NCBI GenBank assembly: GCA_007125005.1
Contig: SLDY01000058.1
Coordinates: 1-32,519 of the forward strand
DNA: 32,519 bases
Source: Natronohydrobacter sp.
Lineage (GTDB): Bacteria > Pseudomonadota > Alphaproteobacteria > Rhodobacterales > Rhodobacteraceae
Direction of reading: 5' to 3'
In this document: positions 372 to 17,858 of the stretch, in pieces
Position numbering within the stretch: the stretch's first letter is position 1
How the letters are laid out: each line of letters starts with the position of its first letter
Made by a program: the position numbers and the translations under genes
Notes under the pieces: model-generated
What the model saw: only the letters and a program-made list of their open reading frames with translations
Told to the model about the DNA's origin: nothing
The model's database searches: none

Positions 372-2660
372 ATGAAGATTCTGTGCCTTGGCGGCGGTCC
401 GGCAGGTCTCTATTTCGGCATATCCATGAAATTGCGCGACCCAGCGCATCATGTGACAGTGCTGGAGCGCAACCGGGCCAATGACACTTTTGGCTGGGGC
501 GTGGTGCTCTCGGATGATGCACTCTCGCGGATGCAGCGCAACGATCCCATATCGACAGAGGCGATCCGCAGCCAGTTTGCCTATTGGGACGATATTGCGG
601 TGATACATGCAGGCAATCGCACTGTCTCGGGGGGGCATGGCTTTGCCGGGATCGGGCGCAAGGCAATGTTGATCCTGCTGCAGGAGCGTGCGTGCGAACT
701 GGGTGTCGAGATGCGCTTCGAGAGCGAATTCGAAAGCGCCGAGAACTATCGGCGCGACTATGATCTGGTCGTGGCCTGCGACGGCATCAACTCGCGCGTT
801 CGTAGTGAATATGCCGATGTCTTCCGCCCTGATATCGACACGCGCAAATGTAAATTCGTCTGGCTGGGCACGCATCAGAAATTCGATGATGCGTTCACCT
901 TCATCTTCGAGAAGACTGAACATGGCTGGGTCTGGGCGCATGTCTATCAGTTCGATGACAATACCGCGACCTTCATTGTCGAATGCCTGCCCGAGACATG
1001 GGAGCGCTGGGGTTTTGAGGCCATGTCGAAGGAGGAAACCGTCGAGACATGCCGCCAGATCTTCGCGGCGCATCTGGACGGGCATGACCTGATGTCGAAC
1101 GCGGCGCATCTGCGCGGATCGGCGGTCTGGATGCAGTTCCCGCGCGTGATTTGTGAGCGGTGGTATCACGAGAATGTCGTGCTGATGGGCGATGCTGCGG
1201 CGACGGGGCATTTCTCCATTGGATCAGGCACGCGGCTGGCCTTCGATTCTGCCATCGCCTTGGCCGAATATCTGCATTCCGAGCCGGATATGCAGACAGC
1301 CTTCAAACGCTATCAGGAAGAGCGGCGTCTGGAAGTGCTGCGCCTGCAATCAGCGGCGCGCAACAGCCTCGAATGGTTCGAGGAGGTGGAGCGCTATCTT
1401 GACATGCCGCCGCTGCAATTCGCCTATTCGCTGCTGACCCGAAGCCAGCGCATCAGCCATGAGAACCTGCGCCTGCGCGACCCGGACTGGCTGCGCGTGG
1501 CCGAGGACTGGTTTGCGGCACAGGCTGGCGGGGAGCCGGGCCGTGCGCCCATGTTCCAGCCCTACCGGCTGCGCGACATGGCATTGCAAAACCGCATCGT
1601 CGTCTCGCCCATGGCGCAATACAAGGCCGTCGATGGTTGCCCGACCGACTGGCACCTTGTCCATTATGCCGAGCGCGCGAAGGGCGGCGCGGGGCTGGTC
1701 TATACCGAGATGACTTGCGTCTCGCCCGAGGGCCGGATTACGCTCGGTTGCCCCGGTCTTTACGCGCCCGAGCATGAAGCGGCATGGCGGCGGCTGGTCG
1801 ATTTCGTTCATTCCGAGACCGAGGCGAAGATCTGTTGCCAGATCGGGCATTCGGGGCGCAAGGGTTCGACCCAGCTTGGCTGGGAGGAGATGGACGCGCC
1901 CTTGAGGCACGGCAACTGGCCAGTGATGAGCGCCAGCGCGATCCCATGGTCCGAGCGCAACGCGGTGCCAAAAGAGATGGACCGCGCCGATATGGATCTG
2001 GTGCGCGATCAGTTCGTCGCCGCTGCCGAGATGGCCAAGCGCGCGGGCTTCGACATGATCGAGCTGCACGCGGCGCATGGGTATCTGATCTCGAGCTTTA
2101 TCAGCCCGGTTTCGAACCAGCGCCGCGATGAATATGGCGGATCGCTGGAAAATCGCCTGCGCTACCCCCTGGAGATTTTCGCCGCCATGCGCGCAGTCTG
2201 GCCCGAGAGCAAGCCTCTCTCGGTGCGGATTTCGGCGCATGACTGGCGCGGGGATGAGGGGATCACGCCCGCGGAGGCTGTGGAGATTGCACGCGCTTTC
2301 CGCGCGGCGGGTGCGGATATCATAGATGTGTCGGCGGGCCAGACCAGCACCGAGGCCAAGCCAGTCTATGGCCGCATGTTCCAGACCCCGTTCTCGGACC
2401 GCATCCGAAACGAGGCGGGCATCCCGACAATGGCGGTAGGCAATATTTATGAGCCCGATCATGTGAACTCGATCCTGATGGCTGGCCGCGCTGATCTGGT
2501 GTGCCTCGCGCGACCGCATCTGGCCGATCCCTATTGGACGCTCCACGCCGCCGTGGCGATGGGCGACACGAGCACAAATTGGCCCCTGCCCTATCTCGCG
2601 GGCCGCGATCAGGCGCGCAGGCTGGCCGAACGTGAGGCCGAAATGGTGGGCAAGGTATGA
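372..2660 (+). CDS. 2-aminobenzoyl-CoA monooxygenase/reductase (salicylyl-CoA 5-hydroxylase/OYE fusion)
   Basis: This 762-residue protein fuses two enzymes. Residues 1 to about 385 are a class A FAD monooxygenase, with an N-terminal dinucleotide fold ([10 protein letters not shown] at 7-16), a DG motif at 137-138 and the FAD-binding [12 protein letters not shown] block from 273. From Met394 onward it is an old-yellow-enzyme (FMN) reductase, with HAAHGYL at 566-572 and the [12 protein letters not shown] signature. This layout matches the Azoarcus-type enzyme that hydroxylates anthraniloyl-CoA and then reduces the ring to a non-aromatic amino-oxocyclohexene carbonyl-CoA. The neighbouring aryl-CoA ligase and kynA favour anthranilate over salicylate. 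A GGGAG box seven bases upstream supports the start. The gene heads a nine-gene operon and overlaps the next gene by 4 bases (ATGA). Confidence 0.9.
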
Positions 2661-4689: not shown

Positions 4690-5844
4690 ATGAGTGACAA
4701 GAGCTATCTCGACTGGCCCTTTTTCGAGGACCGGCATCGCGCGCTGGCAGCGGAGGCCGAAGCGTGGGCGCGCGCGCATCTTGGGGCTGTCGATCATGGC
4801 GATGTCGATGCGACCAGTCGCAAACTGGTGGCAGCGCTTGGGGAAGCGGGTTTTCTGGGTCTGACCGGCGCTGAGGATGGGCGGCTCGATGTGCGGAGCC
4901 TTTGCCTGATGCGCGAGGCGCTTGCGCGCCATGACGGGTTAGCGGATTTCGCCTTTGCGATGCAGGGGTTGGGGACGGGGGCGATTTCACTCTTCGGAAC
5001 TGAGGAACAGAAGGCGCGCTGGCTACCCGAAACACGGGCCGGGCGCGCGATTGCTGCTTTTGCGCTGACCGAGCCGCAATCGGGCTCGGACGTGGCCAAT
5101 TCTACCATGACGGCAGTGTCTGATGGCGATGACTACATCCTGACAGGCGAGAAGACATGGATCTCGAACGGTGGCATTGCCGATCTCTACACGGTTTTCG
5201 CCCGCACAGGCGAGGAACCGGGGGCGAAGGGGCTGTCATGCTTTCTGGTGACGCCGGACACGGCCGGGTTCGAGGTTGTCGAGCGGCTGGAAGTAATGGC
5301 CCCGCATCCATTGGCGCGGCTGCGCTTTTCGGATGTCCGCGTACCGAAAGCGGCACTAGTGGGGCAGCCGGGGGCCGGTTTCCGCATCGCGATGTCGGTG
5401 CTTGATGTGTTCCGCTCGACAGTCGCGGCCGCCGCTCTGGGTTTCGCACGGTGCGCACTCGATGAGGCACTGGCGCGCGTCACCACCCGCCAGATCGGGG
5501 GCGCTGCGCTCTCGGAGTTGCAGATGGTGCAGGGCCATATCGCGGATATGGCACTGGATGTGGATGCAGCCGCGCTGCTCGTCTATCGTGCCGCCTGGAC
5601 CAAGGATTCCGGCGCGCCACGCGTGACGCGCGAAGCTGCAATGGCGAAGCTTTTCGCCACCGATCAGGCGCAACAGGTGATCGACCGTGCGGTCCAGCTT
5701 CATGGCGGCGACGGAGTGCGCGCGGGCGAAGTGGTGGAGCGGCTTTACCGCGATATCCGGGCGCTCAGGATTTATGAGGGGGCCTCGGATGTTCAACGTG
5801 TGGTCATCGCGCGCCAGACATTGGCCGCATATCTGAGAGGATAG
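4690..5844 (+). CDS. Acyl-CoA dehydrogenase
   Basis: This 384-residue flavoprotein has the full acyl-CoA dehydrogenase layout: an N-terminal helical domain, the beta-domain signature [14 protein letters not shown], the FAD-contacting block with TWISNGG, and a C-terminal helical domain. Glu363 in IYEGASDVQ matches the catalytic base position of medium-chain acyl-CoA dehydrogenase. The QLHGGDGV block, which contacts FAD across the dimer, is present. It probably desaturates an alicyclic or ring-opened CoA ester made from anthraniloyl-CoA, passing electrons to ETF. The start is preceded by a G-rich ribosome binding site and by repeat copy 1. Three bases separate it from the ligase gene. Confidence 0.88.
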
Positions 5845-5847
5845 GAC

Positions 5848-7461
5848 ATGTTTGCATCAGCCCATACCGATACATTCGCCCGCGACAACCTGCCCGACCG
5901 GGCACTCTGGCCGGATTTGCTGCTCGAGGGGTTCGACTATCCCGAAAGGCTGAATGCGGCCGTGGAGCTGACCGATGCGATGGTGGCGCGCGGCTTTGGC
6001 GATCATACTGCGCTGATCGGAAATGGACGGCGGCGCACATATAAGGAACTGGCCGACTGGACCAATCGGCTGGCGCATGTGCTGGTTGAGGACCTCGGGG
6101 TAAAACCGGGCAACCGGGTGCTGATCCGTTCGGCCAATAACCCTGCGATGGTAGCCTGCTGGCTCGCGGCGACAAAGGCGGGCGCGGTGGTGGTGAACAC
6201 CATGCCGATGTTGCGCGCCGGGGAGTTGACGAAATATGTTGATGCCGCCGAGATCACGCACGCGCTTTGCGATACGCGGCTAATGGATGAGATGGCGCTC
6301 TGCGCCAAGAACAATCGTTTTCTGAAAACCGTGGTCGGCTTTGATGGCACGGCCAATCACGACGCGGAGCTCGATCGACTTGCACTTCAGAAACCTGTTC
6401 AGTTCAAGCCCGTTGACACTGCGCAGGATGATGTGGCGCTGATCGGCTTCACCTCGGGTTCGACAGGGGTGCCCAAGGGCACGATGCATTTCCACCGCGA
6501 CCTTCTGATCATTGCCGATGGCTATGCCCGCGAGGTGCTGCAGGTCACGCCAGAGGATGTCTTTGTGGGCTCACCACCTCTGGCCTTCACCTTCGGGCTG
6601 GGGGGGCTTGCGATCTTTCCCTTGCGTTTTGGCGCGGCTGCCACATTGCTGGAGCAGGCCACCCCGCCTAATATGATCGAGATCATCGAGACTTATCGCG
6701 CCACAGTCTGCTTTACGGCACCCACAGCTTACCGCGCCATGCTCTCGGCCATGGAGGCGGGGGCGGATCTCTCCTCCCTTCGCGCCGCAGTCTCGGCGGG
6801 AGAAACGCTGCCCGCACCAGTCTATGAACAATGGATTGAAAAAACCGGAAAGCCGATGCTCGACGGGATCGGGGCTACGGAGCTTCTGCATATCTTCATC
6901 ACCAATCGTTTCGACGATCACCGACCTGCCTGCACCGGAAAACCGGTGACAGGCTATGAGGCGAAAGTGATCGGCCCGGATGGGCAGGAGGTCGAGCGCG
7001 GTGTGATCGGGCGGCTGGCTGTGCGCGGGCCAACCGGCTGTCGCTATCTCCGGGGGGATCGGCAGGCCGATTATGTGCACGATGGCTGGAACGTCACAGG
7101 CGATGCTTTCGTTCAGGATGCGGACGGGTATTTCCATTTTGCTGCACGCAATGACGATATGATCCTGTCTTCCGGCTACAATATCGCCGGGCCGGAGGTA
7201 GAGGCGGCGCTGCTTTCGCATGAGGCGGTTGCCGAATGCGCTGTGATTGGCGTTCCCGATGAGATGCGCGGAGCAATAGTTCAGGCGCATATCGTGCTGA
7301 TGGAGGATTTCGCACCTTCGGAGACTTTGGCCGCGCTCTTGCAGGACCATGTGAAAGCCACGATCGCGCCTTATAAGTATCCGAGATCCATTATTTTTGC
7401 CGAGAGACTGCCCAAGACACCAACGGGCAAGATCCAGCGTTTCCAGCTGCGCACGCCATGA
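5848..7461 (+). CDS. Aryl-CoA ligase (2-aminobenzoate/benzoate-CoA ligase family)
   Basis: This 537-residue adenylate-forming enzyme contains the P-loop-like core [10 protein letters not shown] (202-211), the GATE motif (342-345), the hinge-side TGD block, and the C-terminal catalytic Lys528 in PTGKIQR. Length and motif order match the benzoate-CoA ligase family, which activates aromatic acids with ATP and CoA. Its place between the acyl-CoA dehydrogenase and kynA, and the monooxygenase/reductase that heads the operon, make anthranilate the most likely substrate. Salicylate or benzoate cannot be excluded from sequence. A GAGGATAGGAC ribosome binding site precedes the ATG. The stop overlaps the kynA start by 4 bases. 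Confidence 0.85.
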
Positions 7462-8288
7462 CAGAGGCTTATGATCCGCGCGAGGATGGCGCGAAGACAG
7501 ATTTTCGTGATGCCATGTCTTATGGCGATTACCTGCGCCTGAACGAGTTGCTCGAGCAGCAGCACCCCTTGTCGCGCGCGCATGATGAAATGCTGTTCAT
7601 CATCCAGCATCAGACCAGTGAATTGTGGATGAAACTGGCACTGCACGAATTGCAGGCCGCGCGCGAGGCCCTGATTGCGGGGCACATGCCGCAGATGTTC
7701 AAGATGCTCGCCCGCGTTGCGCGGATTTTCGAGCAACTCAACTCTGCATGGGATGTGCTGCGCACAATGACCCCCGCCGATTACACGCAATTTCGTGCTG
7801 CGCTCGGTCCGTCTTCGGGCTTTCAATCATGGCAATACCGCATGATCGAATATGTGCTGGGCAATCGTAACCCGCATCTTTTACGCCCACATGCCCATCT
7901 GCCAACAGCGCTGGAGCAGCTTGAGGCCGAGCTTGCACGACCCAGCTTCTATGATGAGGTGATCCGGCACCTTTTCGAACAACTCGGGGCTGGCGCGGCG
8001 CCAGTTCCTCAACTCGATAGCCCTCATCAGCCCCTGCCCGAGGTGCAGGCGCTTTGGCAGCAGGTTTATGAGGATACGACCACATATTGGGAGCTTTACG
8101 AACTGGCTGAAAAACTGGTCGATCTGGAGGATTACTTTCGCCGCTGGCGTTTCAACCATGTCACCACGGTCGAGCGTGTGATCGGCTTCAAGCGTGGCAC
8201 GGGTGGCACATCGGGTGTCGCTTACCTCAAACGGATGTTGAGTGTGGAACTATTCCCCGAACTCTGGCATTTGCGCAGTGATTTGTGA
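7458..8288 (+). CDS. kynA: Tryptophan 2,3-dioxygenase
   Basis: This 276-residue haem enzyme opens the indole ring of L-tryptophan to N-formylkynurenine, the first step of the kynurenine pathway. Diagnostic blocks are [24 protein letters not shown] with active-site His51, [15 protein letters not shown], and [15 protein letters not shown] with the probable proximal haem ligand His234, then GTGGTSGV near the C terminus. The length is typical of bacterial enzymes. It overlaps the ligase gene as ATGA and so is coupled to it. That links tryptophan breakdown to the anthraniloyl-CoA steps of the operon. Kynureninase and kynurenine formamidase are not in the window. Confidence 0.95.
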
Positions 8289-8298
8289 GGGCAAACCC

Positions 8299-8703
8299 AT
8301 GCGATTTGAAAAACACCAGAAAGTGCTCTTTCGGCATTGCGATCCGGCGGGGATTATCTTCTATCCGCGCTATTTCGAGATGGTGAATGATCTGGTCGAA
8401 GCCTTTTTTGACGAGGCTCTTGGCTGGCCTTTCGAGGAATTGCTGCAAACTCAAGGTGTGCCCACGGCTGAGATCCGCCTGCGCTTTGCTGCGCCTTCGC
8501 GCCATGGTGACCATTTGCGCCTGCAGCTGGAGGTCACGCGGCTGGGGCGGGCCAGCATGGGGCTTGCGCTGCGAGCAGAGGATAACGCCGGGGAATTACG
8601 GTTCGAGGGGGAGTCAGTGCTGGTGCATATTGATGCAAACGGCAAACCCTGTGCCTGGCCTGATGGGATCCGAACCAAGATCGAAGCAGAATTGGACAGA
8701 TGA
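8299..8703 (+). CDS. 4-hydroxybenzoyl-CoA-type thioesterase (hotdog fold)
   Basis: The 134-residue protein begins MRFEKHQKVLFRHCDPAG. HCDPAGIIFYPRYFE is the signature of the 4-hydroxybenzoyl-CoA thioesterase hotdog family, with catalytic Asp15. The frame is open further upstream, but this ATG has a GAGGG ribosome binding site and lies 10 bases after the kynA stop, so it is preferred. In the operon it may hydrolyse an aromatic or alicyclic CoA ester, either as a productive step or to recover CoA from stalled intermediates. It is one base from the next gene. Confidence 0.82.
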   Translation: MRFEKHQKVLFRHCDPAGIIFYPRYFEMVNDLVEAFFDEALGWPFEELLQTQGVPTAEIRLRFAAPSRHGDHLRLQLEVTRLGRASMGLALRAEDNAGELRFEGESVLVHIDANGKPCAWPDGIRTKIEAELDR

Positions 8704-8704
8704 C

Positions 8705-9100
8705 ATGCGCCTGAAAACGATCCACCCCGAAGGCTGGGCCCCTGCACTTGGCTATGCAAACGGGATGCTCGCCCCCGATGGGACATTGCATATTGGCGGG
8801 CAGATCGGCTGGAATGCTGACAAGCAATTCGAGGCCAAGGGTTTTATTGGCCAGTTGGAACAAACACTGCGCAATGTGGTTGCCGTGGTTGAAGCCGCAG
8901 GCGGGAATGTCACCGACATTGCACGCATGACGTGGTTTGTAACGGATAAGGCCGAATACCTCGCGCATCAGCGCGAAGTCGGGCAGGCCTACCGGCGGGT
9001 CATGGGCAAGCATTTCCCGGCCATCTCGATGTTGGTCATCGCTGATCTGATAGAGGATGAGGCGCTGATCGAGATCGAGGCAACCGCGCATATCGGCTGA
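8705..9100 (+). CDS. RidA-family protein lacking the carboxylate-binding Arg
   Basis: This 131-residue protein has the Rid (YjgF/YER057c/UK114) fold signatures, including HIGGQIGWN near the N terminus and the closing EIEATA motif with the conserved Glu123. In classical RidA the motif near the active site reads PARS, and its Arg grips the carboxylate of 2-aminoacrylate. Here the motif is PAISM, with Ile107 in the Arg position. A normal RidA reaction on free enamine acids is therefore unlikely. The monooxygenase/reductase encoded at the head of the operon yields an enamine on a CoA thioester, which has no free carboxylate. Hydrolysis of that enamine with release of ammonia is a reasonable inference. 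The start is chosen because it follows the previous stop by one base. Confidence 0.85.
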   Translation: MRLKTIHPEGWAPALGYANGMLAPDGTLHIGGQIGWNADKQFEAKGFIGQLEQTLRNVVAVVEAAGGNVTDIARMTWFVTDKAEYLAHQREVGQAYRRVMGKHFPAISMLVIADLIEDEALIEIEATAHIG

Positions 9101-9109
9101 AAGGCTGGG

Positions 9110-9137
9110 CTGGCCCCTTGATCAGGGCCAGGTTTTC
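9110..9137 (+). terminator. Candidate terminator of the anthranilate operon
   Basis: CTGGCCC (9110-9116) pairs with GGGCCAG (9125-9131) over an 8-base loop, followed by GTTTTC on the + strand. It lies just after the RidA-like gene and overlaps the end of the convergent paaZ gene. Confidence 0.45.
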
Positions 9138-11170
9138 GCCACCATCGTCAGAACGTCATAAAGCGCCACCTTCGCGCCTGTCTGGTTGCAGACCTGACAA
9201 TCCCAGCGCACCTCGCCATAATCGCCGTCCGCGCGCGGGTTGATCTCCTTGCAGGTCAATGTCACCTGCAGCGTATCGCCGGGATACACGGGGGTTAGAA
9301 AGCGCAGATTGTCGATGCCGTAATTCGCCAACACCGGGCCGGGATCGGGCTGCACGAATAACCCAGCGGCGAAGGATACGATCAGATAGCCATGCGCTAC
9401 GCGCCCCTCAAAGAACGGGTTGGCGCGCGCGGCATCCTCGTCCATATGCGCGTAAAATGTATCGCCGGTGAACTCCGCGAAATGCTCGATATCTGCGAGC
9501 GTGATCTCGCGCGTATCGGTTACAAGCTGGTCGCCGATACGCAGATCGGCCAGTGATTTGCGGAACGGGTGAATATCGCTGCGCGCCTTGGCCCCATCCA
9601 GCCAACGACCGGTTACGGCGCCCAGCAGGCGCGGCGCACCCTGAACGGCGGTGCGCTGCATGTAATGGTGCAGCCCGCGCATACCCCCGAGCTCTTCGCC
9701 CCCGCCTGCGCGCCCCGGCCCGCCATGCACCAGCATCGGCAGGGGGGAGCCATGGCCGGTGGAAGTCTTGGCGCTGTCGCGATTGCCGATCATCACGCGG
9801 CCATGGAAGGGCGCGAGGCCCAGTACCACCTCTTCAGCGACCTCGGTCGCATGTGTGAAAAGAGAGGAGACGAGCGAGCCCTTACCCATGGCAGCAAGCT
9901 CGGTGACTTCGCCCAGATCATCATAGGGCATGAGTGTTGCAACCGGGCCGAAGGCTTCGACTGCGTGGATGGCCTGAGCACGCATCGGCTGATCGGCATA
10001 GAGCAGGACGGGGTTGAGGAAGGCCCCAGTCTCGGGATCGCCGGTTGTGACGCGCACACTTTCGGGATCGCCAGCGACGATCTCGGCCTCTTGTGCCAGT
10101 CGTGCAATTGCCGCGCGCACATCTTCGCGCTGATCGAGGCTTGCGAGCGCACCCATACGGGTGGCGGGATCGGCGGGCAAGCCCACAGCGACCTCTGCGA
10201 GCTTCGTCGCCAGCGCGTCACGCACGGCTCCGGCTTGCGTGCGCGGGATGATGACGCGGCGGATGGCAGTGCATTTCTGGCCTGCCTTGGCGGTCATTTC
10301 GCGCATCACTTCGCGGATGAAAAGGTCGAACTCGGGGCTGTCGGGGCTCGCATCGGGGCCGAGGATGCAAGCGTTGAGGCTGTCGGCCTCCATCGTGAAG
10401 CGCGTACTCTCGCGGATGATCGCGGGATGTGCGCGCAGTTTTTGGCCCGTGCTGGCAGAACCAGTGAAGGTGACCACATCCTGCCCGGTTACATGATCCA
10501 GCAGATCGCCTACGCCACCGCAGATCAGTTGCAGCGAACCCTCGGGCAGGAGCCCCATCTCGATGATCCGGCGCACCATCAATTCTGTAAGATAAGCGGT
10601 CTGGCTAGCGGGTTTGATAATGGCGGGCATCCCGGCCAGAATATTGGGTGCGAGTTTTTCGAGCATCCCCCAGATGGGGAAGTTGAAGGCGTTGATATGC
10701 ACCGCGACCCCGCGCAGTGGCGTCAGGATATGCTGCGCCGAAAAGGTCGCATCCTTCGAGAGCGACTCGACCACGCCATCGGTCAGCACCTTTGTGTTGG
10801 GCAATTCGCGCCGTGCCTTCGAGGCGTAATTCAGCAGCGTTCCGATTCCGCCCTCGATATCGATCCAGCCATCCTTGGGCGTGGCCCCGGTGGCAAGCGA
10901 GAGGGCGTGAAAGTCGTCCTTCTGCTCCATGAGCTTGAGGCCCAGTGCCTTGAGCAACAAGGCGCGCTCATGCACGGTCATTGACCGCAAAGCCCCGCCA
11001 GCGCCGCGCCCATAGGCCAGCGCCTCGGCGAAATCGAGCCCCGTGGAATCGATCTCGGCCACCAGATCGCCTGTCGCTGCATCATGCAGCGGCTTTGCGG
11101 TTCCATGCCCTTTGCGCCATGCGCCGCAGAGATAGCTTTCGAGCGCGCGGGGCTGCTTTGCGTCAAGCAT
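9122..11170 (-). CDS. paaZ: Bifunctional oxepin-CoA hydrolase / semialdehyde dehydrogenase PaaZ
   Basis: This 682-residue protein has the size and layout of PaaZ. Residues 1 to about 530 are an aldehyde dehydrogenase with Glu261 (MEAD) and catalytic Cys300 (GQKCTAIRR). The C-terminal part is a MaoC-type hotdog hydratase with [15 protein letters not shown] and the [12 protein letters not shown] block. PaaZ opens the oxepin-CoA ring and oxidises the aldehyde to 3-oxo-5,6-dehydrosuberyl-CoA. It is the last gene of the paa operon. Its start lies 8 bases inside the preceding PaaA-like gene, and its stop faces the anthranilate operon. Confidence 0.95.
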
Positions 11171-11924
11171 CGGTTTTCACTCCGCATTCAGCAAGCTGCC
11201 TCGCCACAGTGGTCTCCCATTCGGACAGCATCTCGGCATTGGGCCGGTGCCGCAGCCCCAGCGCCTTCAGCCGCTCGAAACGCTCGGAGTCCTTCGCGCC
11301 GAAACCCAACGCCACGCGCGGGTGCCAATAGGCGAGCGACTCGCGCACCTGATCGGGCGTGTCATGCGCCAGCGCCTCGAGGCCCGCGAGTCCAAGCTCG
11401 GCATGGCGCGTCTCACGCGGTAGAATCGCGCGGAAGCACTCCGCCAGCGGCTGATATGAGACTTGCGAGAACTCCCGCAACTGGATCACCGCTGCAGCGC
11501 CTTGCAGCACATTCATCACAACCGCATCGACCCAGCCCTTCAACGGGTAGTGAAACACCGCCAGCCGCATGTCCCCACCCTGTCGCACAGCGCCGATATC
11601 GGCCTCGCGCGGCAACCTTGCGGCCCATGGATGCGTTCCCACATAGCGCGACACATCCGCCCCAAACTCGGCCATGATCTTGAGAACCCGCTCGGCATGA
11701 TCGGCCTTTTCCAGCACGATCCGCGCGGCGGAAATGCGCGAGGTGATCCCCGGCGCGTCATTGATGACATCGGCAAACCCCGCAGATGCCGCCATCTCGC
11801 TATCGACAAAGGATGCCATCATACGCAGAAGCTCGCCCCGATAGCGTGGCGGCACATTGCCGGGCGAGGTCAGCCGTCCGCCCTGCGCCAGATATTCCTC
11901 GATGGGCATGGTCTCATTCGTCAT
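11163..11924 (-). CDS. Extra PaaA/PaaC-family ferritin-like protein
   Basis: This 253-residue protein is not one of the standard PaaABCDE subunits but aligns with PaaA. Glu43 in DSEMAAS matches PaaA SEIVGQ, Asp133 in GWVDAVVMNV matches Paa[12 protein letters not shown], and Glu171/His174 form an ExxH pair like that of PaaA. The first diiron pair differs: the sequence is LEKADHAER, so the Glu-His spacing is ExxxH (72/76), not ExxH. It may be a second diiron oxygenase component, an inactive structural partner like PaaC, or an assembly factor. It overlaps paaE by 11 bases and paaZ by 8, so it is part of the same translated block. Family is confident, role is unknown. Confidence 0.8.
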   Translation of the reverse strand: MTNETMPIEEYLAQGGRLTSPGNVPPRYRGELLRMMASFVDSEMAASAGFADVINDAPGITSRISAARIVLEKADHAERVLKIMAEFGADVSRYVGTHPWAARLPREADIGAVRQGGDMRLAVFHYPLKGWVDAVVMNVLQGAAAVIQLREFSQVSYQPLAECFRAILPRETRHAELGLAGLEALAHDTPDQVRESLAYWHPRVALGFGAKDSERFERLKALGLRHRPNAEMLSEWETTVARQLAECGVKTDA

Positions 11925-12984
11925 AGCTGATCACCAGTTTATCAGAAAGGGGCAGGCATTGGCAGGTCAACACATAGCCTTGCCTGACCTCGTAATCCTC
12001 GAGTGCGTGGTTGACGGCCATCTCGGCCTCGCCCTCGATCACCTTGGCGCGGCAGGTTGAACAGACACCGGCCTTGCAGGCATAGGGCGCATCGAGGCTC
12101 GCGCCCAGCGCTGCATCGAGCACAGACGTGCCATCGAGCGGCAGATCGAGGCTGCGTGTCGTGCCATCGAGAGTGACCGTAAGCGCGCAGGACTTGCCCT
12201 TTGCTGCCTGCACCTGCGCCCGCGCCGATTGCTTGAGCCGCCCCGGCTGATTAGAGGCGAACAGCTCGAACTTGATCTGGCTGTCTTCCAGCCCATGCTC
12301 GCGCAAGGCGCTCGCGATAGTCAGCATCATCGGTTCCGGCCCGCAGATGAAAGCGGTATCCACCGATTTCGGATCCACCCAATGCTGGAACAATGCCGCC
12401 ATCTTCTCGGCATCCACGCGACCGGTGAACAGCTCGATCTCCTGTGCGTCCTGCTCCAGCACATGCAGCACCGAGAGCCGCCCCAGATAGAGGTTCTTGA
12501 GATCCTCCAACTCCTCGCGGAACATGATCGTGCTGATCTGGCGATTGGCATAGACGAGCGTGAAGCGGCTCTTCGGCTCCCGCGCCAGCACAGTGCGGAT
12601 GATCGACAGCACTGGCGTGATCCCAGAGCCGCCGGCGAACCCCAGATAATGCCGCGCCTGATCAGGGGCGAGCGGCACATGAAAATTGCCTGCAGGCGGC
12701 ATCGCCTCCAGCACATCGCCGGGGGCGAGGTTCTCATTCGCCCAGGTCGAGAACGCGCCGCCATCGACACGCTTGATGCCCACGCGCAGCGTACCGTCAT
12801 CAAGGCCTGAGCAGATGGAATAGGAGCGCCGGATCTCCTGCCCCTCAAAATCGCGGCGGAAGGTCAGATACTGGCCCTGAATGAAGCGGAAGGCGTCTGT
12901 ATCCGATGCCTGCAGGGTGACGATAACCGAATCGCGCGTGTCATGCTGCACATCGGTTACATTCAAAGGGTGAAATCGGCTCAT
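11914..12984 (-). CDS. paaE: Phenylacetyl-CoA epoxidase reductase subunit PaaE
   Basis: This 356-residue reductase carries electrons from NADPH to the epoxidase core. It has an FAD domain (RSYSICSG), an NAD(P) domain (GFAGGSGITPVLSII), and a C-terminal plant-type [2Fe-2S] ferredoxin domain with Cys303, Cys308, Cys311 and Cys341. The frame stays open upstream into paaD, but the Met at 12984 begins MSRFHPLNV and gives the usual family length. It lies 10 bases after the paaD stop and overlaps the start of the following PaaA-like gene. Confidence 0.94.
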   Translation of the reverse strand: MSRFHPLNVTDVQHDTRDSVIVTLQASDTDAFRFIQGQYLTFRRDFEGQEIRRSYSICSGLDDGTLRVGIKRVDGGAFSTWANENLAPGDVLEAMPPAGNFHVPLAPDQARHYLGFAGGSGITPVLSIIRTVLAREPKSRFTLVYANRQISTIMFREELEDLKNLYLGRLSVLHVLEQDAQEIELFTGRVDAEKMAALFQHWVDPKSVDTAFICGPEPMMLTIASALREHGLEDSQIKFELFASNQPGRLKQSARAQVQAAKGKSCALTVTLDGTTRSLDLPLDGTSVLDAALGASLDAPYACKAGVCSTCRAKVIEGEAEMAVNHALEDYEVRQGYVLTCQCLPLSDKLVISYDE

Positions 12985-12994
12985 CTCGCGGCCC

Positions 12995-13501
12995 TCAGAT
13001 ACATTTGAAATAATCGAACGGCTCCAGACAGGACCGGCATTGATACGCGGCCTTGCAAGGCGTGGAGCCGAACTGGCTGACCTTTTGCGTCTCTTCCGAG
13101 CCGCAGCGCGGGCAGGGCACGACAAGCGCCACCCCCGTGAGCCGCTTGATCCGGCCCGCGACCACGCCCTCTGCGCGCGTGCCGTCGATGGGGGGCGCGA
13201 TGCCATAGGCACGCAGCTTCTCGCGCGCTGCGGGCTTCAGCCAGTCGGTCGTCCAGGGCGGATCAAGACGGCGCTCCAGCCGCACATCGGCCACGCCCTT
13301 GTCGCGCAGCGCCTTCTCGATCTCGAAATTGATCACCGAGGTCGCGGGGCAGCCCGAATAGGTGGGCGTCACGGTCACCACCACCGTCTCGCCTTCCAGC
13401 GCTACGTCGCGCACGATGCCCAGATCGGTGACCGAGATCACAGGGATCTCGGGGTCCGGCACCTCGTCGAGCCAGTTCCAGACTTGCGCCACGCTTACCA
13501 T
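12995..13501 (-). CDS. paaD: Phenylacetyl-CoA epoxidase accessory protein PaaD
   Basis: The 168-residue protein has an N-terminal MIP18/DUF59 domain (PDPEIPVISVTDLGIV and PTYSGCP with Cys51). A C-terminal Cys-rich zinc-ribbon-like part holds Cys130, Cys133, Cys149, Cys155, Cys158 and Cys167. PaaD is needed for a working epoxidase and resembles iron-sulfur assembly factors, probably maturing PaaE or the diiron core. The start MVSVAQVWNW was chosen because it overlaps the paaC stop by 7 bases and gives the family length. An in-frame codon ten residues earlier is less likely. Confidence 0.92.
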   Translation of the reverse strand: MVSVAQVWNWLDEVPDPEIPVISVTDLGIVRDVALEGETVVVTVTPTYSGCPATSVINFEIEKALRDKGVADVRLERRLDPPWTTDWLKPAAREKLRAYGIAPPIDGTRAEGVVAGRIKRLTGVALVVPCPRCGSEETQKVSQFGSTPCKAAYQCRSCLEPFDYFKCI

Positions 13502-14265
13502 TTGGCATCCGGATAGGCGCGCTGGAGCCATTGCATCGTGGCCAGCATATGGCCCAGATGCTCGGAATGCGTGCCCTGCTTGCCGCCCTTGTGCATGTAA
13601 GCACCCTCGGGCGCCTTCAGCTTCGCCTCGCCGAGCACCTCGGCCACCAGTGCCTCCCAGGTCGGGCGAATGCTGTCGGGCGCGGCCATCACACCTGCCT
13701 CTGCCAGAGTACGATCCACGTCATCGGCCATCATCATCTCGCCCGTATAGGGCCAGAGTGTGTCGAGCGCCGCCTGCATCCGCTTGTGGCTTTCCTCGGT
13801 GCCGTCACCCAGCCGGATCACCAGATCGGCAGATCGTTCCAGATGATAGGCCACCTCACGCCCCGCCTTGGCGGCAATCTCGGCGATACGGGCATCCTTT
13901 GATCCCTCCAGCGCCTTCAGCATCGGCTGGTGCCATGCATCGAACAGGAATTGACGCATAAGAGTCTGGCCGAAATCCCCATTCGGTCGCTCGGCCAGCA
14001 GCAGGTTACGGAACTCCCATGCATCGCGGCGAAAGGCCAGCGCATCGGCATCGCGCCCCTTACCCTCGACGTCACCCGCCAAACCCAGCCAGAGCTGCGT
14101 CTGTCCGATCAGATCAAGCGCCATATTCGCAAGCGCGATATCTTCTTCCAACACGGGCGCATGGCCGCACCATTCCGATACCCGATGCCCCAGCACCAGT
14201 GTCGTATCGCCCATGCGGCACAGCCCCTCGAAGAGCGCCGCGTCCAGATCGACCACGGTTTCCAT
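13495..14265 (-). CDS. paaC: Phenylacetyl-CoA epoxidase structural subunit PaaC
   Basis: This 256-residue protein of the ferritin-like PaaA/PaaC family forms the stable core with PaaA. Landmarks are the N-terminal LGHRVSEWCGHAPVLEEDIA, the DLIGQTQLWL helix and the HLERSADLVIRLGDG block. In the known complex PaaC is structural and has lost catalytic iron. The ATG at 14265 shares one base with the paaB stop (TGATG). A GTG one codon earlier is the alternative start. Confidence 0.94.
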   Translation of the reverse strand: METVVDLDAALFEGLCRMGDTTLVLGHRVSEWCGHAPVLEEDIALANMALDLIGQTQLWLGLAGDVEGKGRDADALAFRRDAWEFRNLLLAERPNGDFGQTLMRQFLFDAWHQPMLKALEGSKDARIAEIAAKAGREVAYHLERSADLVIRLGDGTEESHKRMQAALDTLWPYTGEMMMADDVDRTLAEAGVMAAPDSIRPTWEALVAEVLGEAKLKAPEGAYMHKGGKQGTHSEHLGHMLATMQWLQRAYPDAKW

Positions 14266-14549
14266 CACATCTTCCCCACTTCCTCGGGAATGTCGAAGAA
14301 GGTCGGATGGCGATAGACCTTGGAATTGGACGGATCAAACAGCGGCCCCTTATCCGACGGGCTTGAGGCCGTGATCGCCGAAGACGGCACCACCCAGATG
14401 CTCACCCCTTCATTGCGCCGCGTATAAACATCGCGCGCATGTTTGACCGCCATCTCGGCATCGGGCGCGTGCAGCGAGCCCACATGCCGATGGTTCAACC
14501 CATGCTGGCCGCGAATGAAGATTTCCCACAAAGGCCACTCACTGGACAT
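14265..14549 (-). CDS. paaB: Phenylacetyl-CoA epoxidase subunit PaaB
   Basis: The 94-residue protein has typical PaaB features: WPLWEIFIRGQHGLNHRHVG at its N terminus and the DVYTRRNEGVSIWVV block. The length matches known PaaB proteins. It is a small subunit thought to bridge the PaaAC heterodimers and the reductase. Its ribosome binding site (AAAGGG) directly follows intergenic repeat copy 2, which fills the 81-base gap to paaA. Confidence 0.94.
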   Translation of the reverse strand: MSSEWPLWEIFIRGQHGLNHRHVGSLHAPDAEMAVKHARDVYTRRNEGVSIWVVPSSAITASSPSDKGPLFDPSNSKVYRHPTFFDIPEEVGKM

Positions 14550-14559
14550 CGCTTTGCCC

Positions 14560-14619
14560 TTTCATCCTTGAAAAATATCCTGGGGGTAGGCCGCAGGCCG
14601 CAGGGGGCAAAGCCCCCTG
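14560..14619 (-). repeat. Intergenic repeat element, copy 2
   Basis: Read in the direction of the paa operon, the element starts with a perfect 8-bp hairpin (arms 14601-14608 and 14612-14619, loop of three). It continues with GGCCTGCGGCC, an AGGATATTTTTC block and AAGGATGAAA, and the paaB ribosome binding site comes next. It has the same order and orientation as the other two copies. The hairpin could slow or partly end transcription between paaA and paaB, but no clean T-run follows it. Confidence 0.75.
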
Positions 14620-14630
14620 AGCACGCAGCG

Positions 14631-15608
14631 CTATTCCGCCGCGACCTTCGCCGCTGCTCGCTTTCTTGCATGCGCCATCAGCCCCTCGCGGAACCATGCG
14701 CCATCGTCCCATGCCTTTTGCCGTGCTTCCATCCGCTCAGCATTGCACGGGCCATTTCCCTTGATCACCTCGAAGAATTCCGACCAGTCAGGCTCGGAGA
14801 AATCATAGCCGCCCTTCTCCTCGTTCCAGCGCAATTCCGGGTCGGGGATCGTGAGCCCCAGATATTCCGCCTGCGGCACCGTCTGATCCACGAATTTCTG
14901 GCGCAACTCGTCATTGGTGTTGATCTTGATCTTCCAGGCCATCGACTGCGCGGAATGCACCGAATCCTTGTCCGAGGGCCCGAACATCATCAGCGAGGGA
15001 TACCAGAAGCGGTTGAGCGCATCCTGCGCCATTGCCTTCTGTTCCGGCGTGCCTTGGGCCATCTTCATCATGATGTCATAGCCCTGCCGCTGGTGAAACG
15101 ACTCTTCCTTGCAGATACGGATCATTGCGCGGGAATAGGGCCCGAAGGATGTGCGCTGCAGCGGCACCTGGTTCATGATCGCGGCGCCATCCACCAGCCA
15201 GCCGACCGCGCCGATATCGGCCCAGTTCAGCGTCGGGTAATTGAAGATCGAGGAATATTTCATCTTGCCCGACAAGAGCGCCTCGGTCAGCTCGTCGCGC
15301 GAAACCCCCAGCGTCTCGGCCGCGCAATAGAGATAGAGCCCGTGCCCAGCCTCATCCTGCACCTTGGCCAGCAGGATCGCCTTGCGCTCCAGTGTTGGTG
15401 CGCGGGTGATCCAGTTGCCTTCGGGCAACTGCCCAACGATCTCGGAATGCGCATGCTGGCCGATCTGGCGGATCAATGTCTTGCGATAGCCCTCGGGCAT
15501 CCATTCCTTGGGCTCGATCTTCTCGCCCGCATCGATGCGCGCCTGAAAAGCCGCGAGCTTTTCGGGGTCTTCATTCGTCGCCTCGGATTTTACCATCTGT
15601 GCATACAT
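14631..15608 (-). CDS. paaA: Phenylacetyl-CoA 1,2-epoxidase catalytic subunit PaaA
   Basis: This 325-residue diiron subunit epoxidises the ring of phenylacetyl-CoA. The metal-binding residues are visible: Glu56 (AHSEIVG), Glu86/His89 (DEAGH), Asp140, and Glu169/His172 (KEESFH). The N-terminal [20 protein letters not shown] and the C-terminal [16 protein letters not shown] blocks are typical. A strong GGAGG ribosome binding site lies 7 bases before the ATG, and the gene follows the thiolase gene by 16 bases. Confidence 0.96.
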
Positions 15609-15624
15609 TTCCAGACCTCCAGTC

Positions 15625-16830
15625 TCAGACCCGTTCCAATATCAATGCAGCGCCCTGCCCTACGCCCACGCACATTGTACAAAGCGCATAGCGCCCGCCA
15701 CGGCGCTGCAATTCCCATGTCGCCGCCGCAACCATCCGCGCACCAGAGGCGCCCAGCGGATGCCCCATCGCAATCGCGCCGCCATTCGGGTTCACATGCG
15801 CGGCATCATCGGGCAATCCGAGTTCGCGCAGCGAGGCGAGCGCCTGCGCGGCGAAGGCCTCATTGAGTTCGATCAGGTCGATATCCTCGATCTTGAGCCC
15901 CGCAAGCGCCAGCACCTTGCGCACCGCTGGCACCGGGCCAATGCCCATCACGCGCGGCTCAACCCCTGCCGCCGCATGGGCGACAACGCGCGCACGCGGC
16001 GTCAGCCCCTGCGCCTGCGCCATCGCTTCCGAGGCCAGCAAAAGCGCCGCCGCGCCATCATTGACGCCCGAGGCATTGCCCGCCGTGACGCTCAGATCAG
16101 GCCCGTTGATACCGCGCAGCTTGGCCAGTGCCTCCGGCGTTGTCTCGGGGCGCGGGTGCTCGTCCGTATCGATCACCAGAGGATCACCCTTGCGGCGCGG
16201 GATCGTCACTGTGCAAATCTCGTCGGCAAAGCGCCCGTCGGCCTGCGCGGCGGCCCAGCGCTGTTGCGAGCGCAGCGCGAAAGCGTCCTGATCCGCGCGC
16301 GAGACAGCATAGTCGGCGGCCACATTATCGGCGGTCTCAGGCATGGAATGGGTGCCGTATTGCGCATCGAGTTTCGGGTTCACGAAGCGCCAGCCGATGG
16401 TTGTGTCATAGACTGCATTGGCGCGCGAGAACGCTGTCTCGGCCTTGGGCATGACGAAGGGCGCGCGGCTCATGCTTTCGACCCCACCTGCAAGCATCAG
16501 CCCGCAATCGCCCGCTCTGATAGCGCGCGCAGCCATGCCGACAGCATCCAGCCCAGAAGCACAGAGGCGGTTTACGGTGATGCCCGGCACAGCAACCGGA
16601 AGGCCCGCCAGAAGTGCTGCCATCCGCGCGACATTGCGATTGTCCTCGCCCGCCTGATTGGCGCAGCCATAGATCACATCCTCGACCGCAGCCCAATCCA
16701 CCCCCGGATGCCGCGCCATAAGTGCCGCAAGCGGCACGGCGGCAAGATCATCGGCGCGCATGGATGAAAGTGCGCCACCATAGCGCCCGACGGGTGTGCG
16801 TTGCGCGTCACAAATGAATGCTTGCGGCAA
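15625..16830 (-). CDS. pcaF: 3-oxoadipyl-CoA / 3-oxo-5,6-dehydrosuberyl-CoA thiolase
   Basis: The 401-residue thiolase shows the nucleophilic Cys90 ([12 protein letters not shown]), the NEAFAAQ block, His357 ([14 protein letters not shown]) and Cys387 ([10 protein letters not shown]). In phenylacetate degradation it cleaves 3-oxo-5,6-dehydrosuberyl-CoA and 3-oxoadipyl-CoA, so paaJ is an equally good name. The start is a TTG: GGAGG lies seven bases before it, and this start gives [19 protein letters not shown] and the usual 401 residues. An earlier in-frame TTG lies just before that ribosome binding site and is rejected. It is the first gene after the operator and promoter at 16863-16905. Confidence 0.92.
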
Positions 16831-16862
16831 AGTGGCTCCTCCCAAAGCGATCCTGCCATTTC

Positions 16863-16876
16863 CGACCGTTTGGTCG
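16863..16876. promoter_or_regulatory. Operator-like palindrome upstream of the paa operon
   Basis: CGACCGTTTGGTCG fits a CGACCG-N2-CGGTCG palindrome with one mismatch. It sits directly downstream of the -10 box of the predicted promoter, where a repressor would block initiation. A second site with the same pattern lies upstream of the TRAP operon at 17995-18008. PaaX, encoded next door, or a TetR-type PaaR outside the window are the candidate binders. Confidence 0.55.
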
Positions 16877-16877
16877 A

Positions 16878-16905
16878 TTTATACTCTCAATATGTCACAT
16901 CTCAA
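16878..16905 (-). promoter_or_regulatory. Sigma-70-like promoter of the paa operon
   Basis: On the minus strand TTGAGA (16905-16900) and TATAAA (16883-16878) are separated by 16 bases. They lie about 50 bases upstream of the pcaF start in an AT-rich stretch. The adjacent palindrome overlaps the expected transcription start. Confidence 0.5.
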
Positions 16906-16963
16906 AGCAGATTTTTAATAATTTTGTGATGCTTTGTGCGACAACCAAAAACCGGCTTTGATT

Positions 16964-17842
16964 TCAAACCCTAAGGCTCTCACGAAGTAGCGCATAGCGC
17001 GCCTCGCCTGCGCGCGTGCGGCTCTGGAGCGGGCCTTCGGCACCCTCGAAAGCCGCTGCCACATGCGAATCAGCCTCCGCGCTGAGCGCCAGATAGGTTT
17101 GCGCAAAAACGCTGCGTGCGCGGATCCCGGCCCAGTCGGCGGGCAGTGCCGCGTGCGGCAGGCGTGGATCGCGCAGGGCAATCTGGCGGAAGGCATGAAC
17201 CAAAAGCACCCGCGCCTCGAGCGCCTCTGCGCCAGGAAGCGGCATCATCTCGTTGATCTGCTCGGCATGGCCCAAAAACCCTGTGTATTCCTGATCCAGC
17301 GCATCAAGATCCCAAAGCCGCCGCGCCATGTCATGCAAGGCCGTATCAGACCCTTCTGCAGTGCCCGTGATCGCGCAGAGTCCCTCGGGGAGCGGCATTG
17401 AGCGAGGCCCCAACGCCATGCTATCCGTCAGCGCAACATGGCTCGGGAGATCACCAGCGCTGCAACGCGCCACCGCATCGGCTTGAGGGCAAAACACCAG
17501 CCGCCAGGCTTCTGCCCGCGCATCGCCATAAATCCGTGCGCCTGCTTGTGCATATTCGTTCTGCGCAACCTCTGTCAGCCGGTAGAAACTGCGCCGCCCC
17601 TGCCGCAGCCCCGCAATCTGGCCCGCAGAGACAAGGCGCGACATGGCCGTTCGGATCAGTGTTTCGCTTATGCCAAAAGGCGCGCAGAAGGCGATGATAT
17701 TGCCAATCCACACATCGCCCCCGCGCGGCGCAATCACATCACCGAAGAGCGTTACGATGAAACTGCCCGCGCGCAAGGGCTGCGCGAGGGCAAGATCTGC
17801 GGGCCGTTGCACGCGCACCTGATCATCTTGAGGTAACTGCAT
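16964..17842 (-). CDS. paaX: PaaX-family repressor of phenylacetate degradation
   Basis: This 292-residue protein has the PaaX layout. An N-terminal winged helix (SFIVTLFGDVIAPRGG, then the recognition part SETLIRTAMSRLVSAGQI and the wing GRRSFYRL) is followed by the long effector domain, with YTGFLGH and the VHAFRQIALRDPRLP block near the C-terminal end. PaaX represses paa genes and releases DNA when phenylacetyl-CoA binds. The ATG at 17842 has AGGA seven bases upstream; a TTG one codon earlier is the alternative. It lies 133 bases upstream of the pcaF gene on the same strand and is divergent from the TRAP operon. Confidence 0.9.
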   Translation of the reverse strand: MQLPQDDQVRVQRPADLALAQPLRAGSFIVTLFGDVIAPRGGDVWIGNIIAFCAPFGISETLIRTAMSRLVSAGQIAGLRQGRRSFYRLTEVAQNEYAQAGARIYGDARAEAWRLVFCPQADAVARCSAGDLPSHVALTDSMALGPRSMPLPEGLCAITGTAEGSDTALHDMARRLWDLDALDQEYTGFLGHAEQINEMMPLPGAEALEARVLLVHAFRQIALRDPRLPHAALPADWAGIRARSVFAQTYLALSAEADSHVAAAFEGAEGPLQSRTRAGEARYALLRESLRV

Positions 17843-17858
17843 CAACTGATCCTGCCCC

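Follow-up and report, generated by a model that had tools for sequence, protein, structure and literature searches.

An Arg-less Rid-family protein linked to 2-aminobenzoyl-CoA degradation and its proposed role in ammonia release from a CoA-bound ring enamine

Among the described Rid proteins, RidA/UK114/YjgF deaminates 2-aminoacrylate and has a housekeeping function, and RutC from E. coli is a deaminase of the beta-enamine 3-aminoacrylate (PMC8113886) that speeds enamine hydrolysis within a catabolic operon; RutC has an essential Arg104 and its substrate carries a free carboxylate. AmnE, the 2-aminomuconate deaminase, serves aminoaromatic degradation; its cleft retains Arg117, and its substrate is a ring-opened dicarboxylate (PMC6742747). 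RidA and RutC lose their deaminase activity when the Arg is replaced, and such activity was found in none of the published Arg-less Rids that were assayed (PMC4433059, PMC8113886, PMC5619798). In the subfamilies Rid4 to Rid7 the Arg is lost in all and the Glu is kept (Niehaus et al., PMC4433059). The role of this retained Glu in Rids is disputed; Salmonella RidA was hardly affected when Glu120 was changed to Ala (PMC4433059). The current view is that Rids without Arg105 are non-deaminases with no assigned role, and annotation pipelines label many proteins "RidA family". RidA-family genes have also been described in the benzoate/catechol regulons of Thauera and Burkholderia (PMC6449761).

The aerobic 2-aminobenzoyl-CoA pathway (abm genes of Azoarcus evansii; Arthrobacter Rue61a) combines a ligase with a monooxygenase/reductase fusion, as does the locus described here. 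Anthranilate-CoA ligase activity was demonstrated for the Rue61a ligase genes of the pathway, and a CoA ester of C7H8O4 is present in Rue61a cells grown on anthranilate (PMC3534580). The ester was interpreted as cyclohexanedione-carboxyl-CoA, the deaminated product, whose amine precursor was described as unstable below pH 5 (PMC3534580). In the literature we found no enzyme assigned to ammonia release in the CoA route of anthranilate, and none of the papers searched, a set outside which the original Azoarcus gene paper lies, links RidA/L-PSP with 2-aminobenzoyl-CoA or anthranilate.

The Rid gene and its operon

The window, i.e. the whole stretch of DNA that was analysed (32,519 nucleotides), carries a Rid gene as the final gene of a compact operon that begins at position 372. 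The genes are as follows:

372 to 2660, plus strand: 2-aminobenzoyl-CoA monooxygenase/reductase fusion (ACMR; FAD monooxygenase plus old-yellow-enzyme domain); NF006101, 1304.9 bits, above the cut-off of 1078; PF00724 and PF01494
2657 to 3379, plus strand: SDR oxidoreductase; PF13561, 165.5 bits
3376 to 3831, plus strand: MarR-family regulator; PF12802, 42.1 bits
3831 to 4631, plus strand: enoyl-CoA hydratase/crotonase family enzyme; NF006107, 469 bits, above the cut-off of 330
4690 to 5844, plus strand: acyl-CoA dehydrogenase; PF00441, 150 bits
5848 to 7461, plus strand: benzoate-CoA-ligase-like AMP ligase; TIGR02262, 363.5 bits, slightly below the cut-off of 375
7458 to 8288, plus strand: tryptophan 2,3-dioxygenase; TIGR03036, 384.8 bits, slightly below the cut-off of 390.7
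8299 to 8703, plus strand: 4HBT-type acyl-CoA thioesterase; PF13279, 44.4 bits; ends 1 bp before the Rid start
8705 to 9100, plus strand: Rid-family protein, proposed CoA-enamine deaminase; ATG at 8705, 131 aa, complete gene

The fusion and an aryl-CoA ligase are thus found within one operon, the combination by which an aerobic 2-aminobenzoyl-CoA (abm-type) pathway is recognised. The ligase is probably a 2-aminobenzoate-CoA ligase, and a ligase 53% identical to it adjoins ACMR on plasmid pAL1 of Rue61a. In NCBIfam and RefSeq the two-domain ACMR type is named salicylyl-CoA 5-hydroxylase/oxidoreductase. This label is probably misleading for operons like the present one, and we read the product of 372 to 2660 as ACMR because its two-domain make-up and its setting fit. 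The crotonase is a candidate ring hydrolase, or a rival for deamination (see below). A kynureninase is encoded elsewhere in the same genome (contig C63), so that a route from tryptophan to anthranilate is plausible; a search of this genome for kynurenine formamidase (TIGR03035) gave no match. Beyond the Rid gene, on the opposite (minus) strand, a phenylacetate cluster (PaaZ, E, D, C, A and PaaX) occupies 9122 to 17845, with an additional PaaA/PaaC-domain protein at 11163 to 11924, between PaaE and PaaZ.

The product of 8705 to 9100 matches PF01042 with 63.5 bits (cut-off 27.3) over profile positions 7 to 120 of 121. None of the NCBIfam Rid equivalogs scored above its cut-off: we obtained 50.2 bits for TIGR00004 (RidA; cut-off 106.25), 38.4 bits for TIGR03610 (RutC; cut-off 169.1), whose conserved Arg104 is absent, and 34 bits for PRK11401 (cut-off 222). 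Since the defining Arg is absent when checked, the protein stands outside the RidA and RutC definitions. Its predicted structure (monomer model) has a pLDDT of 96.6 and aligns over almost its full length with the structures of RutC, YjgF, TdcF and UK114 (VIA-align, Z 17-19). The product is therefore, on profile and model, a member of the Rid (YjgF/YER057c/UK114) superfamily with a predicted Rid (chorismate-mutase-like) fold. A chance or mis-called ORF is ruled out by the conserved protein, the profile match and the fold. The closest relatives are uncultured MAGs, and the nearest named ones are Rhodobacteraceae.

Four sites in the gene matter for what follows:

9017 to 9031, plus strand: PAISM motif, residues 105 to 109; the Ile107 codon (9023 to 9025) stands at the RidA Arg105 position in the alignment
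9071 to 9073, plus strand: Glu123 codon, equivalent to RidA Glu120 in the alignment
8810 to 8812, plus strand: Trp36 codon (in GQIGW), by conservation counts a hallmark of the proteobacterial group that is linked to ACMR and BCR (BCR, benzoyl-CoA reductase)
8924 to 8926, plus strand: Arg74 codon, second hallmark of the linked Rid group by conservation counts

Aligned with E. coli RidA, the motif reads H-F-P-A-I-S-M, with Ile107 facing Arg105, while Tyr17 and Glu120 of RidA both have their equivalents (the latter Glu123). The sequence-only reading had described a Rid-like protein in which Ile replaces the Arg and the Glu is kept; profile, fold and alignment all confirm it. In the 147 relatives, a set in which some entries are duplicated between collections, position 107 is Met in 136, Ile in 6, another non-Arg residue in 4 and a gap in 1, and never Arg, and Glu is found at position 123 in all 146 having a residue there. 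A relative with 93% identity also has Ile107 and the remaining close relatives have Met, so Ile107 is no sequencing artefact. Going by the alignment, it is a local variant within a Met group, and Ile as a special feature of the group is ruled out, Met being the norm at this position. Of the 101 operon-linked proteins 100 have Trp36, as do all 8 of the BCR group, against 0 of 12 in an unlinked side set; the corresponding figures for Arg74 are 99 of 101, 8 of 8 and 1 of 12.

Compared with the known systems, the protein shares with RidA/UK114/YjgF the fold and the Tyr17 and Glu120 equivalents, but it lacks Arg105 and adds Trp36, Arg74, Trp77 and Arg97; it is also a dedicated pathway gene and not a housekeeping one. 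With RutC it shares the fold (Z 19.1) and the Glu, whereas its group has Ile or Met in place of the Arg and, as we propose, a CoA thioester as substrate; the beta-enamine hydrolysis that RutC speeds is a proposal for the protein of the window. AmnE, of the same family (Z 17.0), differs by its Arg and its substrate. By residue pattern alone, with the Arg replaced and the Glu kept, the protein also fits Rid4 to Rid7, to which no function is assigned so far, whereas the present group is tied to 2-aminobenzoyl-CoA pathways.

It had been argued from the sequence that an Arg would have no partner if the carboxylate is masked as a CoA thioester. The argument was half right: the Arg is indeed absent, but it is also gone in many Rids unconnected with CoA esters. 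The other Rid paralogues that we aligned from the searched relatives all lack it, which rules out Arg loss as evidence by itself; since many unrelated Rids are also without Arg, its loss alone means little. In the second Rid of the same genome (contig C65), a HAR motif, and with it an Arg, stands close to this position.

Association with ACMR and with benzoyl-CoA reductase

Among 385 genomes of the class, we called the Rid type at E ≤ 1e-15 and ACMR at E ≤ 1e-150. This gave 77 genomes with the Rid type, 71 with ACMR and 65 with both, with an odds ratio of 273 and a Fisher p of 9e-54 in which kinship is ignored. The neighbouring catabolic gene paaZ, taken as a control, gave an odds ratio of only 4.7 with ACMR, so that an association arising merely from catabolic or large genomes is ruled out. 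Within the genus of the window, ACMR and the Rid orthologue are present in the identical 5 of 24 genomes (p 2.4e-5).

The two genes lie at most 15 kb apart on one contig in 38 of the 65 genomes with both; in the other 27, some of them fragmented assemblies, we found no contig with a Rid copy that close to ACMR. On several long contigs the distance is 0.2-1.8 Mb, and because the genes are far apart on one contig in some genomes, the co-occurrence is not only a matter of operon inheritance. The Rid gene is in or beside the operon at 101 of the 147 loci, 78 with ACMR adjoining and 23 with other operon genes, and at 77 of these 101 an operon gene stands on the same strand less than 200 bp away.

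Most Rids found without ACMR fall in one supported side clade (11 rows), in a tree of Rid relatives in which many forks are not resolved, and Trp36 and Arg74 are lost in this clade. When its members lacking ACMR and one distant copy (G166) are omitted, 65 of 69 Rid genomes have ACMR; among the four remaining exceptions, one (G148) has a benzoyl-CoA reductase cluster and another (G219) has operon genes on a short contig. Conversely, six genomes, several of them incomplete, have ACMR without this Rid type. The sequence-only reading had called for a comparison of genomes, and had held that finding the same Rid type commonly far from such operons would speak against it. The co-occurrence with the fusion enzyme turned out to be strong, both in operons and where the genes are far apart, and, the side clade omitted, the Rid type is not common without the enzyme. 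We regard the link of this Rid type to the 2-aminobenzoyl-CoA pathway as close to certain.

A sister subclade of 8 rows, including L091 and L104, has BCR genes within about 10 kb of the Rid gene in 6 of 8 cases; the BCR-linked loci are L091, L094, L102, L104, L118 and L089. At L091 we found BCR subunits B and C, cyclohexadienecarbonyl-CoA hydratase and 6-oxocyclohexenecarbonyl-CoA hydratase/hydrolase, all above curated cut-offs. At a betaproteobacterial locus (L198), the Rid gene is flanked by the ACMR operon and by BCR genes. Tryptophan dioxygenase is absent from the BCR-linked loci.

The commonest immediate neighbour of the Rid gene is a thioesterase gene, on the same strand and at most 200 bp away at 54 of the 101 linked loci. 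This would suit a protective Rid that disarms a reactive imine or enamine formed as a by-product of the pathway, e.g. free amino-oxo-cyclohexene carboxylate released by the thioesterase, and does not serve the main flux; pre-emption of reactive enamines is the general Rid role (PMC4433059). A free carboxylate, however, would favour Arg105, and almost every member has a non-polar residue there; moreover, the BCR-linked loci examined yielded no operon thioesterase. We therefore judge such a damage-control role unlikely, if the most credible of the alternatives.

Proposed deamination of a CoA-bound ring enamine

BCR and ACMR are unrelated, and both would give a dearomatised ring derived from 2-aminobenzoyl-CoA that keeps the amino group, beta to the thioester. 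A ring enamine thioester as product would be the simplest common denominator of the two contexts. This shared product, the C7H8O4 ester of Rue61a, whose plasmid carries a Rid of this type beside ACMR, and the precedent of RutC together lead us to propose deamination of the CoA-bound ring enamine. Indeed, since the Rid type occurs almost only in microbes that degrade anthranilate as its CoA ester, it probably releases ammonia from this enamine. We consider it fairly probable that these proteins make up an Arg-less Rid group of their own, one that is specialised in the degradation of 2-aminobenzoyl-CoA (anthraniloyl-CoA) and would hydrolytically deaminate the enamine; substrate, reaction and the roles of the residues are what we infer. 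That two unrelated dearomatising systems share the Rid type makes enamine-CoA hydrolysis plausible on the strength of gene context.

In the proposed mechanism, the CoA-bound ring enamine would tautomerise to the imine, and a water molecule near Glu123, in the trimer cleft, would attack C2; breakdown of the carbinolamine would then give 2,5-dioxocyclohexanecarboxyl-CoA and ammonia. Residue 107, being non-polar, would leave room for, or face, the thioester, with no free carboxylate to pair with. The operon crotonase could then open the beta-keto ring. Against such catalysis speak the Arg-less Rids assayed to date, none of which is a deaminase, the need for the Arg in RidA and RutC, the small effect of the Glu120 change in Salmonella RidA and the six ACMR genomes without this Rid type. 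Spontaneous deamination might also be sufficient, as with RutC, in whose absence growth continues.

Hydration followed by elimination at C-beta is typical crotonase chemistry. The operon crotonase, present with ACMR in most operon loci, might thus itself hydrate the beta-enamino thioester and release ammonia, the Rid merely assisting, binding an effector or stabilising the enzyme; that Arg-less Rids have shown no catalysis (PMC8113886) would fit this. But Glu123 is invariant in the 146 relatives, the Rid persists with ACMR even when encoded far off, and the BCR clusters, which have other crotonases, keep the same Rid type. Release of ammonia by the crotonase seems to us improbable, somewhat more so than a protective Rid.

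If deamination by the Rid is true, the rule that a Rid without the Arg is no deaminase would be overturned, and the ammonia-release step would be filled for anthranilate, tryptophan and quinaldine degraded by the CoA route. One small protein would then serve two unrelated ways to break aromaticity. To our knowledge, it would be the first Arg-less Rid with a catalytic role and the first Rid of any kind with a CoA thioester as substrate. In its widest form, which we put forward tentatively and at a little under an even chance, the proposal is that the group gave up the enamines of free amino acids in favour of ring enamines bound to CoA, with a Met/Ile pocket in place of the Arg, and releases ammonia in both aerobic (flavin monooxygenase/reductase) and anaerobic (BCR) 2-aminobenzoyl-CoA degradation, in bacteria and haloarchaea.

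Distant copies and exceptions

In annotated records, a Rid gene was found near ACMR in Ruegeria pomeroyi DSS-3, on plasmid pAL1 of Arthrobacter Rue61a, in Rhodococcus NJ-530, in Deinococcus psychrotolerans and in the haloarchaea Haladaptatus and Natronococcus. These Rids have Met or Leu at position 107, with Met in the homologue SPO_RS21860 of R. pomeroyi DSS-3, and Glu at position 123; the actinobacterial and archaeal ones lack Trp36 and are about 31-32% identical to that of the window where identity was measured.

Such copies bear on two further explanations. The operon is often plasmid-borne, and the Rid gene could be a passenger inherited with a mobile operon and have no catalytic role. 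Its residues are however conserved in very distant copies, it co-occurs with ACMR unlinked, and it recurs in archaea, in actinobacteria and in the BCR context; we give this explanation the least credit of all. The Rid could otherwise have a different imine or enamine as its substrate, one that arises in the catabolism of tryptophan and kynurenine or when the ring is cleaved in a branch of the 5-hydroxyanthranilate/gentisate type. The tryptophan dioxygenase of the window operon could speak for this, as could the cupin and FAH-family genes near Rid in the Rue61a and Rhodococcus clusters. Yet among the linked loci that are less similar than those of Rhodobacterales, most have no dioxygenase within reach, and there is none in the BCR-linked loci. 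In addition, an ACMR homologue of Cupriavidus taiwanensis, which has cupin and FAH genes, lacks the other operon genes and would be of the salicylyl-CoA/gentisate type, has no Rid within 9 kb. We hold another substrate to be very improbable; a tryptophan-specific role as a general explanation is ruled out, the dioxygenase being absent from many linked loci and from the BCR loci.

Rids beside an acyl-CoA dehydrogenase, with or without a 5-aminolevulinate synthase, are unexplained by the deamination reading and count against it. At nine loci (L069, L073, L085, L092, L097, L105, L108, L115 and L135) the Rid gene adjoins such a dehydrogenase, 71-82% identical among the loci, and some of them also have 5-aminolevulinate synthase or a branched-chain-type ABC transporter nearby.

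In a planctomycetal (L194) and an acidobacterial (L199) locus, Rid stands with the SDR, crotonase and acyl-CoA dehydrogenase of the operon, and ACMR matches are weak and partial (28-33%); these loci possibly have a different dearomatising enzyme. On two haloarchaeal plasmids (L207 and L211), a gene for an LLM-class flavin oxidoreductase lies directly upstream of the ACMR homologue, and the cluster also has an extra trpB gene.
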